DNA of 64,000 bases from Rubrivirga sp. SAORIC476 (lineage in GTDB: Bacteria > Bacteroidota > Rhodothermia > Rhodothermales > Rubricoccaceae): positions 186,001 through 250,000 of the forward strand of contig NZ_MVOI01000006.1 of NCBI RefSeq assembly GCF_002283555.1, given 5' to 3'. Shown here in pieces: positions 56,156 to 59,939 of the stretch. The notes beneath the pieces were generated by a model. The model did not search any database. It was not told where the DNA came from and saw only the letters and a program-made list of their open reading frames with translations. The position numbers and the translations under genes were made by a program. Positions within the stretch are counted from its first letter, which is position 1, and each line of letters starts with the position of its first letter.

Positions 56156-56950
56156 TCACGCGTCGGTCAGCCGCTCGGGGTGGAAACGGTGGTCGGCCGT
56201 GAACAGCCGCCGGTACGCCAGCCCGACCACGCCGAGCGCCGCCAGCGCCACGCACGCCGCGATCATGAACACGATCAGGATCTGGTAGCGGACCGCCTCG
56301 CCCGGCGCTGCGCCCGCCAGGATCTGCCCCGTCATCATGCCCGGCAGGCTGACGACGCCCATCACGGCCATCGAGTTGGTGATCGGCACGAGCCCCGTCC
56401 GCACCGCGTCGCGGACGAGGGGTTTGGCGGCCTCCCAGCGCGTCGCCCCGAGCGCCAGCCGCGCCTCGACGAGGCCGCGCCCGCGCCCGGCCCCCTCCAT
56501 GAAGCGGTCGAGCGACAGCGAGATGCCCGTCAGCGCGTTGCCCAGCAGCATGCCGTGGAGCGGGATCACGTACTGCGGGTCGTACCACGGGTCGATGCGC
56601 AGGATGCCGAGCACCGCCGCGCCGGTCACGACGAACGACGCGCCGAGGACGCTCACAAGGGCGTCGAGGTAGATCCCCCGGAAGCGCCGCGCCGTCCGGC
56701 GGACGGCCGCATGACCGGCCAGCAGCGCCATCCCGACCGCTAGGACCACGACGAGCGGCCAGCTTTCGGTCGAGAACACCCATTCCAGCACCAGCCCCAC
56801 GAGGAAGAGCTGCACCACCATCCGTGTCGCCGCGACGGCCAATCCCTTCGTCAGCCCCAGCCTGAGGGCGACCGACAGGCCGATGGCGACCAGCAGCAGG
56901 CCGGACGCCAGCGCGAGCTGCCACAGCGAAATGTCGACGGCGCCGTTCAC
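56156..56950 (-). CDS. fetB: FetB-like ABC transporter permease (iron export, UPF0014)
   Basis: A 264-residue permease with about seven transmembrane segments. VISLWQLALASGLLLVAIG-like first helix, then RMVVQLFLVGLVLEWVF, PLHGMLLGNALTGISLSLDR and VSLPGMMTGQILAGAAPGEA are the conserved blocks of the YbbM/FetB family, which with FetA exports iron under oxidative stress in E. coli. It begins with GTG at 56950, overlapping the fetA stop (GTGA), so the two are translationally coupled. Iron as substrate comes from the family, not the sequence. Confidence 0.88.
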   Translation of the reverse strand: MNGAVDISLWQLALASGLLLVAIGLSVALRLGLTKGLAVAATRMVVQLFLVGLVLEWVFSTESWPLVVVLAVGMALLAGHAAVRRTARRFRGIYLDALVSVLGASFVVTGAAVLGILRIDPWYDPQYVIPLHGMLLGNALTGISLSLDRFMEGAGRGRGLVEARLALGATRWEAAKPLVRDAVRTGLVPITNSMAVMGVVSLPGMMTGQILAGAAPGEAVRYQILIVFMIAACVALAALGVVGLAYRRLFTADHRFHPERLTDA

Positions 56951-57585
56951 AGGTCGAGAGATCGGGTGGTGACGCGGTCGAGTTGGGCGGCGTCGTGGCT
57001 CGTCCAGACTGCGGCGTGCGAGGCGTCGGAGGCGAGAAAGTCGGCCACGGCGGCCTCGACCGCCTCGGCGCGCTCGGGGTCCAGCCCGGCCGTCGGCTCG
57101 TCGAGCAGCAGCATGGAGGGGGCCGTGAGGAGCGCCCGCAGCAGCCCCACCGTCTGCGCCTCGCCGCCCGAGAGCCCGTCGACCGACTGGCCGAGCATCT
57201 CGGCCTCGCGTCCGAGGCGGGCGAGGAGGCCGGCTGCGCGGGCCTCGTCGTAGGCCGACCCGTCGTGGACGCCGAAGGCGAACGGGGCCTGCAGGTTGTC
57301 GCGGACGGTCCCGTCGAACAGCGCCGGTCGCTGGGCGACGTGGGCGACGGCGGCGCGGTGGCGGGGGAGGCTGGCGACCGGCTCGGCGTGAGACAGCAGG
57401 TCGCCTTCGTCGAGCGCGTCCAGCCCAGCCAGGGCGCGGAGCAAGAGCGTCTTGCCCGCCCCGGAGGCGCCGCGTACCGCCAGCCGGTCGCCCGGGTGCA
57501 CGGCCACATCGAGCCCGCGCCACACCCAGCGGCCGCCGACCTGGCGGCCTGCGTTGCGGAGAGAGACGAGGGGCGGCGTCGGCAT
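56947..57585 (-). CDS. fetA: FetA-like ABC transporter ATP-binding protein
   Basis: A 212-residue ATPase. Walker A GASGAGKT (39-46, K45), Q-loop in AHVAQRPALFDG, signature LSGGEAQTV, Walker B MLLLDEPTAGLD and the switch histidine in TSHDAAQ are all intact. The next gene encodes FetB, and the two overlap by four bases. FetA dimers drive FetB. The start at 57585 (MPTPPLVSLRNAGRQVGGRW) follows a short intergenic stretch that also serves the divergent aromatic leader. Confidence 0.9.
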   Translation of the reverse strand: MPTPPLVSLRNAGRQVGGRWVWRGLDVAVHPGDRLAVRGASGAGKTLLLRALAGLDALDEGDLLSHAEPVASLPRHRAAVAHVAQRPALFDGTVRDNLQAPFAFGVHDGSAYDEARAAGLLARLGREAEMLGQSVDGLSGGEAQTVGLLRALLTAPSMLLLDEPTAGLDPERAEAVEAAVADFLASDASHAAVWTSHDAAQLDRVTTRSLDL

Positions 57586-57769
57586 GGGCGGCGGACCGGC
57601 AGGGGCCGGACGAGGTTTCCGGTGGATCGCCCGCTCGCGCCCGCGCCCGTCTCGGCGCCGAATCGGACACCGTCCTCCCAAAAGAAGAAAAGCGCTTCCG
57701 GAGGCCGAATCAGACCTGGTCTCGGGTGTGCCCTTGCGCGCGGCGCGGTCGGGCGGGTACCATCGGGGC

Positions 57770-57856
57770 ATGACCTCCCTCCGCCCCGCGCTCGCCTCCA
57801 CCCCCTATTCCGGGTATTGGTTTATGCGTTCGGCGGGCCGGAGGCACTCGGGATAG
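57770..57856 (+). CDS. Aromatic leader peptide of 28 residues
   Basis: A short reading frame with ATG at 57770, encoding [20 protein letters not shown] and eight more residues to a stop at 57854-57856. Four aromatic codons fall within six: Y13 (57806-57808), then Y16-W17-F18 in a row (57815-57823), a striking over-representation in a 28-residue product. It lies directly before an intrinsic terminator and the aromatic-biosynthesis fusion gene. This fits a leader peptide whose translation senses charged tRNA-Tyr, tRNA-Trp and tRNA-Phe. Being in the RNA upstream of the enzyme, it need not act as a protein. Confidence 0.75.
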
Positions 57857-57909
57857 CGCACGCTCCCGACAGCCCCTTCGACAGCCCGCCCTCCCCGGCG
57901 GGCTTTTTT
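57832..57909 (+). promoter_or_regulatory. Transcription attenuator: antiterminator arm and intrinsic terminator
   Basis: GCCCGCC at 57884-57890 pairs with GGCGGGC at 57897-57903 and is followed by TTTTTT at 57904-57909, a classic intrinsic terminator 14 bases before the enzyme ATG. The identical GGCGGGC also occurs at 57832-57838 and can pair with 57884-57890 instead, giving a mutually exclusive antiterminator. In addition 57779-57789 can pair with 57833-57843 with one mismatch, a possible protector. This is the trp-like four-segment layout. Ribosome stalling at the aromatic codons would expose the antiterminator arm; a ribosome at the stop would cover it. Confidence 0.75.
57884..57909 (+). 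terminator. Intrinsic terminator of the aromatic leader
   Basis: Seven-pair GC stem (8 with an A-T pair), loop CTCCCC, six T residues. The only U-tract terminator of this quality in the window, and it sits before, not after, a gene. Confidence 0.85.
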
Positions 57910-57923
57910 GTTGCCCCCCGCTC

Positions 57924-59939
57924 ATGTCCGACCTCTCCACCCTCCGCGACGACCTCGACGCCGTCGACCGCAAACTCGTCGACGCGCTCGCCGAGCGTCA
58001 GCGCCTCGTCGCCGATGTCGCTGCCGTCAAGGCCGCCGACGGCGCGCTGCCCATCCAGGACCCCGACCGCGAGCAGGACCTGTTGTCTCGCGTCCACGCG
58101 CTCGCCGAGGACGCGGGCCTCGACGGCTACTTCGCGAGCCAGCTGTACCGCCAGATCCTGCGCCACTCGGTCCGCTACCAGGCCGTCCGGCAGACCGGCG
58201 GCGACGCGCCCGTCCGCGTGGCGTACCAGGGCGTGGAGGGCTGCTACAGCCACTCTGCCGCGCGGCACCACTTCGCGGCCGTCGCGGACGTGGGCTACCT
58301 CGGGCAGAGCACCTTCGGAGGCACCATCGAGGCGCTCAAGCGCGGCGACGCGGACCGGGCACTGCTGCCGGTCGAGAACACGACGGCCGGCCCCATCTCG
58401 GGCGTCTACGACCTGCTGGTCGAGCCCGGCCTCCACATCGTCGGCGAGGAGGTGCTGAAGGTCGAGCACTGCCTGCTGGGCCTCCCCGGCGCCACCCTGG
58501 CCGACATCCGGCACATCGGCACCCACCCGCAGGCGATCCGCCAGAGCAGCCTCTTCCTGGATGCCTTCAAGAGTGACGGCGGCCACGTGGAGGACGAGGG
58601 CGACACGGCTGGGGCCGCCAAGGCAGTCGCTGAGAAGGGGGACAAAACGCGCGCCGCCATCGCCGGCGAGGACGCCGCCGAGCGCTACGGCCTCCACGTC
58701 CTCAAGCGCAACATCGCCAACCGGAAGGACAACTTCACGCGCTTCCTGATCGTGGCGACCGAGCCGCTGACGCACGATGCGCGTCTGCCGCACAAGACCT
58801 CGCTCGTGCTCTCGACGGCCCACGAGACGGGCGCCCTCGCCAAGGTGCTCCAGACGCTCGCCGAGGCCGAGGTCAACCTGACCAAGCTGGAGAGCCGCCC
58901 CTCCCCGACGACGCCGTTCGAAAGCCTCTTCTACCTCGACATCGAAGGGGGGACGCACGAGGAGGCGGTCGCCGACGCGATCGAGGCGGCCAGGGCCCAC
59001 ACCCGGACGCTCCGCGTGCTCGGCTCGTACCCCGTCTTCCGCGCCGAGACGCCCCGCGCGGCCGTGGCGTCGGCCGCCAGCGGCGACGGCGCGGCGGTCC
59101 GCCCCAAGGCGACCGCGCCGCCGAGCGTCAAGGCGAGCCGCCGCAAGCTCGTCGACCGCGGCGACCGGCCGGACTCGGTGGTCGAGATCGCAGGCGTCCG
59201 TATCGGCGGCGACGAGCCGCCGGTGCTCATCGCTGGGCCATGCTCCGTCGAGAGCCACGACCAGATCTTCGCCTCCGCCCGCGCGGTCCGCGAGGCGGGC
59301 GGGCTGATGCTGCGCGGCGGCTGCTTCAAGCCCCGCACGCTGCCCTACGACTTCCAGGGGCTCGGCTACGAAGGGCTGACCATGATGCACGACGCAGGCC
59401 GCGAGAACGGCCTGCCCATCGTGACGGAGGTGGTCCACCCCCGCGACGTGGAGGCGGTCTCCCGCGAGGCCGACGTGATCCAGATCGGCGCGCGCAACAT
59501 GCAGAACTTCGAGTTGCTCAAGGAGGTCGGCAAGAGCCACGCGGCGGTGCTGCTCAAGCGCGGCATGTCGTCGTCCATCGACGAGTGGCTGGCCGCGGCC
59601 GAGTACGTGATGGCGGGCGGCAACGACCGCGTCATCCTGTGCGAGCGCGGCATCCGGACGTTCGAGACGGCGACGCGCAACACGCTCGACCTGTCGGCGG
59701 TGATCGTCGCCCGGGAGCGGACCCACCTGCCGGTGATCGTGGACCCGAGCCACGCCGCCGGCCTGCGGCGCTGGGTCCCGGCCCTCGCCAAGGCGGCCAT
59801 CGCGGCGGGCGCCCACGGCCTGATCGTGGAGGCCCACCCCGACCCGGACCACGCGCTCTCCGACGGCCCGCAGTCGCTCACGTTCGACCAGCTCCGCCAG
59901 CTGGCCGAGGAGATCGGCGTGGCGCCGGTGGCGGCCTAG
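57924..59939 (+). CDS. pheA: Chorismate mutase - prephenate dehydratase - ACT - DAHP synthase fusion
   Basis: A 671-residue cytoplasmic enzyme with four domains. Residues 1-88: chorismate mutase of the AroQ type ([20 protein letters not shown]). About 98-285: prephenate dehydratase, [19 protein letters not shown] and T272-R-F. About 290-365: ACT domain with GALAKVL and E323-S-R-P, the Phe-binding motif. About 415-671: DAHP synthase of the AroF/KDPG-like type (AGPCSVES at 437, [48 protein letters not shown]). It would make the first shikimate intermediate and also phenylpyruvate, with Phe feedback through ACT. The leader peptide and attenuator lie immediately upstream. Confidence 0.93.

Follow-up and report, generated by a model that had tools for sequence, protein, structure and literature searches.

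The gene for a fusion enzyme of the aromatic pathway in Rubrivirga sp. SAORIC476 is very probably preceded by a ribosome-mediated transcription attenuator of the trp/phe type, as judged from the sequence of the locus and of its relatives. The locus lies in the window, by which we mean the whole stretch of 64,000 nucleotides that was analysed. A classic leader-peptide attenuator before an aromatic fusion enzyme had been proposed in the first-pass annotation, and we arrive at the same reading, with leader, terminator and alternative stem all kept in related genomes. The structural gene encodes a fusion of chorismate mutase II (CM), prephenate dehydratase (PDT), ACT and DAHP synthase I (DAHPS) domains (Pfam PF01817, PF00800, PF01842 and PF00793), and both DAHP synthase and prephenate dehydratase relatives of the protein were found among solved structures. 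Its place in the aromatic pathway matches the codons of the leader, and the ACT domain presumably provides a second, allosteric feedback that acts on the protein. The features of the locus are as follows.

57734..57736, + strand: TTG of the predicted -33 element
57758..57765, + strand: predicted -7 element TACCATCG
57770..57856, + strand: leader peptide ORF, 28 codons, with ATG at 57770 and stop codon at 57854-57856
57771..57785, + strand: region 1, predicted to pair with region 2 (anti-antiterminator) and extending into the start codon
57806..57823, + strand: control codons TAT (57806-57808), TAT (57815-57817), TGG (57818-57820) and TTT (57821-57823)
57832..57846, + strand: region 2 (GGCGGGCCGGAGG...), within the leader ORF, predicted partner of region 3 (antiterminator) or of region 1
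57848..57869, + strand: small hairpin across the leader stop codon, nested in the predicted antiterminator fold (seen in the fold of this locus)
57883..57890, + strand: region 3, the terminator 5' arm AGCCCGCC
57897..57909, + strand: region 4, the terminator 3' arm GGCGGGCT with U tract
57924..59939, + strand: CM-PDT-ACT-DAHPS fusion gene, 671 aa

The leader had been described as 28 codons long, with a Tyr codon followed by a Tyr-Trp-Phe run, and this is borne out at 57770-57856. Four aromatic residues fall within eight codons, a density reached by 0 of 1000 dinucleotide shuffles (300 nt ahead of the terminator). When both strands of the 64-kb window were scanned for ORFs with at least four F/Y/W residues in eight codons and a terminator no more than 130 nt from the ORF stop, the leader at 57770 was the single match. 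Its reading frame is open further upstream, with alternative starts at 57728 and 57734; we take the ATG at 57770 as the start because of the position of the promoter and of conservation, as the leader start, the GGGTA..GGTTTA stretch and the region 2 stretch are conserved across five aligned genomes. Tyr and Phe codons end in T in 27 of 43 cases in eight leaders, compared to 15 of 238 in the downstream genes, and 23 of 186 other codons of these leaders (Met and Trp excluded) end in A or T; the leaders are related and not independent, and P-values from such counts should be read with reserve. Within the genus (n = 4), the T-ending fractions of Tyr and Phe codons are 3/3, 3/5, 3/5 and 4/5 for the leaders and 0/29, 1/29, 0/30 and 1/30 for the genes. 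In a GC-rich genome, these wobble-read codons would probably heighten the sensitivity of the ribosome to poorly charged tRNA. Neither the T-ending codons nor the probably leaderless start discussed below figured in the first-pass annotation.

The terminator is composed of AGCCCGCC, the loop CTCCCC and GGCGGGCT, spanning 57883-57904, and is followed by a run of six T at 57904-57909. The fold of 57879-57910 has an energy of -17 kcal/mol (z -4.7). A U6 terminator had been placed at 57884-57909; the assignment as a terminator stands, and its start moves by one base to 57883. Upstream, the coding-looking ORFs are on the opposite strand (by eye), so that the terminator serves no other visible gene of the + strand. 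The sequence GGCGGGC at 57832-57838 repeats the terminator 3' arm exactly, as had been noted. However, the GGCGGGC/GCCCGCC complementarity by itself is not beyond chance in such a GC-rich stretch (P = 0.14), and support for the region 2/3 pairing of the window therefore comes from relatives. Region 1 was placed by the minimum free energy fold of 57770-57860, which contains the 1:2 hairpin at an energy no lower than that of shuffles (z -0.5); a perfect GCCCGCC is found in G001 and G008, and region 1 candidates are listed, without a significance test, in seven of the eight full-fusion loci (G003 excluded). The leader stop begins 16 nt past the end of the GGCGGGC repeat, and a ribosome at the stop would thus mask region 2 only in part.

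Upstream of the leader, the T of the predicted -7 element is located 12 nt before the ATG. The motif TAnnnT is found at -11 to -13 from the leader start in all eight full-fusion leaders (G007 by eye), with a TTG 20-21 nt from the -7 box in seven of these loci (G007 being without), and it is also found at -11 to -13 in 5/5 leaders of trp genes, there too with TTG (by eye). These eight and five leaders belong to families f1, f4 and f9. In three CM-DAHPS loci of family f12 the -7 box is farther from the start, at 15 or 16 nt (by eye), and no clear -7 box precedes the leader start of G060. The pattern TTG-N20-22-TAnnnT(n)G occurs twice on the two strands of the window, once here and once at a site whose ATG is 28 nt away, and a looser promoter pattern ending in a start codon has three occurrences in the window, the leader promoter among them. 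The TTG and TAnnnT elements make up a promoter of Bacteroidota type, for which a passage of PMC9723704 gives the -7 consensus TAnnTTTG. In two Bacteroidota, mRNAs that are leaderless or have very short 5' UTRs account for a few per cent of the total, according to passages of PMC9723704 and PMC7366714. Because the -7 box stands at -11 to -13 from the start, transcription probably begins at the leader ATG or within 1-2 nt of it, which would make the leader mRNA leaderless; the promoter spacing alone is only suggestive of such a start.

A further element, GAAAAGCGCTTCCGG with the palindromic core AAGCGCTT, is located at 57687-57701 of the window, upstream of the leader promoter. It recurs at the same place in G001 and G002, is changed in G003 and is absent from the G007 and G008 stretches inspected. 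We take it to resemble a LacI-family operator, and the palindrome could serve the divergent gene. On the minus strand, at about 56156-57585 of the window, divergent ORFs resemble an ABC-transporter ATP-binding protein and a permease (by eye).

While the elements can be read directly from the DNA, the order in which they would act is taken from known attenuators. Transcription would begin at or beside the leader ATG, and the ribosome would load on the 5'-terminal codon. With charged Tyr and Phe tRNAs plentiful (Trp tRNA too in the own genus and some relatives), the ribosome would travel over region 2 and reach the stop at 57854; with the ribosome over region 2, no antiterminator would form, and the terminator at 57883-57909 would end transcription. 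If one such tRNA were uncharged, the ribosome would stall at 57806-57823, in the loop of the 1:2 hairpin, and part region 1 from region 2, so that regions 2 and 3 could pair and the polymerase could enter the CM-PDT-ACT-DAHPS gene. If there were no translation at all, the 1:2 hairpin, which holds part of the start codon, would keep the gene off.

Of 114 genomes from the order, at least eight carry the full fusion, six of them among the nine genomes of the own family; the other family members gave no match (G004) or a match to DAHPS only (G005, G006). A leader and a terminator, with T-rich tracts after the stem, lie upstream in all eight full-fusion loci listed, and the same arrangement precedes three CM-DAHPS genes (G051, G052, G057) and one CM-PDT-ACT gene (G060). 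Among the matches listed, therefore, every one of the 12 CM-fused PDT or DAHPS genes has a leader and a terminator, G060 being weak on codons. The aromatic density was reached by 388 of 1000 shuffles in G060, where it is thus not beyond chance while the region 2/3 pairing is strong, by 34 of 1000 in G007 and by 12 of 1000 in G051, the last two densities being modest. By comparison, the scanner returned a leader with terminator at none of 24 loci where the match covers DAHPS only (L012-L015, L018-L021, L027-L038, L040-L043), at a threshold of 4, below which the leaders of G007 and G060 themselves fall, so that others of similar weakness would escape it. Of 30 CM loci scanned, 27 gave no match, one (L197) is the CM-DAHPS fusion of G057, and L183 and L186 matched, both counted irrespective of the relation of the match to the CM gene. 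At L165, the one scanner match is on the strand opposite the DAHPS gene. CM genes of G059, G060 (C54) and G029 lie in a fusion-like open frame but match in the CM part only, and L202, L211 and L212 have no match to the fusion protein; none of these six has a leader, save for a weak ORF with terminator in L212. Nor did the scanner match anything in another sixteen stretches (L208-L223).

The predicted antiterminator pairing is kept between families even where the sequence has changed. Compared with shuffles, the region 2/3 duplex has P = 0.002, the lowest value that 500 shuffles allow, in each of the four f12 loci (G052, G051, G057, G060), and P = 0.006 in G027. For eight loci combined (own, G007, G040, G027, G052, G051, G057, G060), Fisher's method gives 5.6e-9, with the own locus used and not G001 or G002, which score better. 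In the own family the values range from 0.02 to 0.26, and the own locus, G003, G007, G008 and G040 (of another family) are not individually beyond shuffles (P 0.10 to 0.26); the pairing is unremarkable in most genomes of the own family because their GC content is so high. In G003, an exact-match search returned no region 2, and by eye GGTGGGC can be placed there with one G-U pair. The sequence of G027 differs in all regions, with GCCGGTGCCG as region 1 and GCGGCACCG as region 2, and complementarity to region 3 is maintained. The antiterminator pairing is thus retained in G027 despite sequence change, the kind of evidence that had been sought from relatives.

The leader peptides allow the role of each amino acid to be weighed. 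Those of G001 (MIVARPTLSSTSFYYGYWFMRPAGRKR), G002 (MIATRPVFAATSFYGYWFTRPAGRKR), G003 (MTPARPVFAAAYPFCGYRFTQPVGRRL), G007 (MPFAAPSYSFTAPAYFDARAGSDGPWPAS), G040 (VTHRVPHIDLRASFYFYGFAFSQPTAGRRIGD) and G027 (VKQPSLHTAPSAPLSEAGAETRRFSFYFYFYFGYRGSGTGGPGAATG), together with the remaining full-fusion leaders, keep Tyr and Phe in 8/8 cases, while the Tyr-Trp-Phe run is present in 4/8. The aromatic codons for which conservation had been anticipated are therefore constant for Tyr and Phe, and not for Trp: G003 has Tyr-Arg-Phe, G040 and G027 lack Trp, and the sole Trp of G007 is near the stop. It is quite possible, if somewhat doubtful, that the attenuator answers to Phe and Tyr alone in practice, the Trp codon being incidental. 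Apart from the loss of Trp from the control run in half of these leaders, with Arg instead in G003, this would agree with the separate Trp leader (WPWW) of the own trp operon and with the aroF leader of C. glutamicum, where a Phe-Tyr-Phe run is reported and Tyr availability is nevertheless without effect, according to a passage of PMC11802643. On the other hand, GGGTATTGGTTT, with TGG at its middle, is common to the own locus, G001, G002 and G008, and Trp recurs in the DAHPS leaders of other phyla.

Two other readings were also considered. Control at the level of translation, or mixed control, in which the hairpin or ribosome traffic would affect initiation at 57924 and not termination, would be in keeping with a hairpin that ends ~20 nt from the start codon and with the lack of a Shine-Dalgarno-like sequence before 57924 (by eye). 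Yet the six-T run abuts the stem, and the T-rich tracts of the eight full-fusion loci have the design of intrinsic terminators, which renders this reading improbable. It is even harder to see the element as another RNA sensor (a T-box, riboswitch or protein-binding leader) or as a free small RNA that has its end at the terminator. Rfam returned weak scores to small RNAs of Burkholderia and Pseudomonas (E 0.55 to 2.2), far under the gathering score, but T-boxes and riboswitches were absent from its matches over 57500-58100 up to E = 5, and the aromatic codons fit the pathway of the gene and are also enriched upstream of DAHPS genes elsewhere. The Rfam leader families (Trp, Phe, His, Leu, Thr and others) gave no match in the window stretch either.

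Leader-peptide attenuation of the same design appears to act on trp genes of the order. A Trp leader with terminator precedes trpE in five of six TrpE loci (own, G001, G003, G007, G027), the own leader being MTHRAPHSVWPWWHPLTSVGRRTVA; in that locus (L126) the start codon of the leader with SVWPWWHP lies 312 nt ahead of the TrpE match, and the leader is followed by a terminator. No leader was found at the TrpE locus of G008, whose match starts at profile position 68, and no Ile/Leu/Val leader with terminator was found at five ilvB loci scanned. The own trpE leader probably starts leaderless, and the situation is similar in G001, G003, G007 and G027. By sequence, trp operons in at least five genomes of this Rhodothermota-like order would thus be under the same design, probably on leaderless mRNAs.

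Beyond the order, we analysed 80 DAHPS loci, the best 80 of 584 relatives from a scan of genome contigs, a set that is no census. An F/Y/W-rich ORF with a terminator lies no more than 800 nt before the DAHPS match in 28 of the 80, where the frequency of such matches in the rest of these loci would predict 1.1. The scanner placed an upstream terminator in 34 loci and none in 46. At least five aromatic residues in eight codons were found in 25 of the 34 terminator-bearing loci (0.98 expected from shuffles of the same upstream stretches); 27 were observed and 4.55 expected with four in eight, and 18 and 0.15 with a threshold of six. L054 is among the 28 matches and missing from the shuffle comparison, probably because its terminator is at the edge of the stretch examined. 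Leaving out L078, whose leader is identical to that of L072, 27 runs remain, not all of them independent (some are close relatives, such as four from Clostridium), and 11 of these 27 combine Phe, Tyr and Trp in a span of 12 residues. Complementarity of regions 2 and 3 has P < 0.05 in 10 of the 27 loci (Fisher 3e-8), and in L065, L083, L084, L085 and L101 it is not beyond chance (P 0.40 to 0.89). By record title, with many records being metagenome bins and possibly mislabelled, the lineages are Clostridia, Negativicutes and other Bacillota, Synergistaceae, Spirochaetes, Planctomycetes, Acidobacteria, Gemmatimonadales, Lentisphaerae, Desulfarculus/Desulfurellaceae and Bacteroidota. Fusion or near-fusion genes of Planctomycetota, Ignavibacteria, Calditrichota and others (L044-L047, L049-L053, L055-L058) have no aromatic leader with terminator, three having an ORF without terminator.

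The leaders share no sequence between phyla (by eye), and they have therefore probably arisen repeatedly. The survey suggests aromatic-leader attenuation of DAHP synthase in many phyla, and we consider it likely that attenuation keyed to Phe, Tyr and Trp is a widespread form of control of this enzyme, in perhaps nine or more phyla and with some leaders reading all three amino acids, of which the window would represent a leaderless, Rhodothermota-like branch. The novelty initially claimed, a single leader that reads all three aromatics in this lineage, finds no support in that form: the run with Trp is found in half of the full-fusion leaders, and all three aromatics occur together in those leaders of other lineages that are counted above. 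Rfam over 14 of the other loci returned no leader family, the only matches, an FMN riboswitch and a tRNA, being at other places in these loci. Such leaders would easily escape RNA-family searches because their signal is carried by the codons of a peptide and not by conserved RNA. DAHP synthase is the entry to a pathway that is exploited in making dyes, drugs and amino acids for food.

Three further observations were made in this set. The Clostridium DAHPS leaders (L061, L064, L065, L083) read FWGF(F/Y)FSAGYLFCKK or near variants, a likeness that exceeds what a run of codons needs. In a deltaproteobacterial bin, a DYYFFYYTWRG leader with terminator (L060, 860-1037) precedes a shikimate kinase-like gene (by eye). 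In a metagenome bin, tandem units of a Trp-rich ORF and a terminator, RYWWRNW and GVYGWRWW (L096, 5780-6130), precede a trpD-like gene (by eye).

In the literature searched, which covered few subscription papers, we found no description of such leaders in Rhodothermota-like bacteria, nor of a class of DAHPS leaders that crosses phyla. That leader-peptide attenuation is rarely described in Rhodothermota or Bacteroidota, as first stated, is a fair account of this literature. A clue there comes from Flavobacterium psychrophilum, for which a passage of PMC9723704 mentions clues to leader-peptide attenuation at amino-acid operons; this is the same general mechanism in a member of the Bacteroidota, and the passage names no aromatic gene and no leader sequence. 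According to part of a 2010 survey, no amino-acid leader-peptide system was known beyond Proteobacteria and Actinobacteria before its find in Firmicutes (PMC2965389).

The mechanism itself is known, and the window element looks like a member of a seemingly widespread, uncatalogued class. In E. coli, trpL and pheL combine control codons, mutually exclusive 1:2, 2:3 and 3:4 pairings and an intrinsic terminator. The window resembles this layout in its control codons, predicted alternative pairings and terminator. In contrast, region 2 lies here inside the leader ORF, the codons are of mixed aromatic type, the start is predicted to be 5'-terminal, and the control codons are in the predicted 1:2 loop, which would put a stalled ribosome between these two regions. 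The pheA gene, which encodes CM-PDT, likewise has a leader, as noted in a passage of PMC11802643. For C. glutamicum aroF, passages of PMC4046766 and PMC11802643 describe a leader peptide with Phe and Tyr codons and attenuation before a DAHPS gene. The aroR-aroF arrangement is the same in both respects as that of the window, but it belongs to another phylum, its reported run is without Trp, and the likeness concerns the arrangement as described. The aroF DAHPS of C. glutamicum is not known to be fused to CM and PDT. Neshat and colleagues are said to have found, in 2014, that this aroF leader is leaderless as well. In Acholeplasma, uORFC-13-1 is an upstream ORF with one or more Phe codons beside a terminator before aroF; the passage on it in PMC8632094, which also cites an earlier hypothesis for E. 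coli aroF, gives 24 representatives from one genus and environmental sequences, with at least one Phe and a ribosome-binding site. An ORF with aromatic codons and a terminator before a DAHPS gene is thus common to both, whereas the ribosome-binding site and the minimum of one Phe set uORFC-13-1 apart. Finally, the ilvBNC operon of C. glutamicum has its start codon 1 nt from the transcription start and a hairpin, H1, described as shielding the site of initiation, according to passages of PMC11857589. This system responds to branched-chain amino acids and belongs to the Actinobacteria, but it shares with the window a start codon at or next to the transcription start and a hairpin over the initiation site, both predicted in our case.
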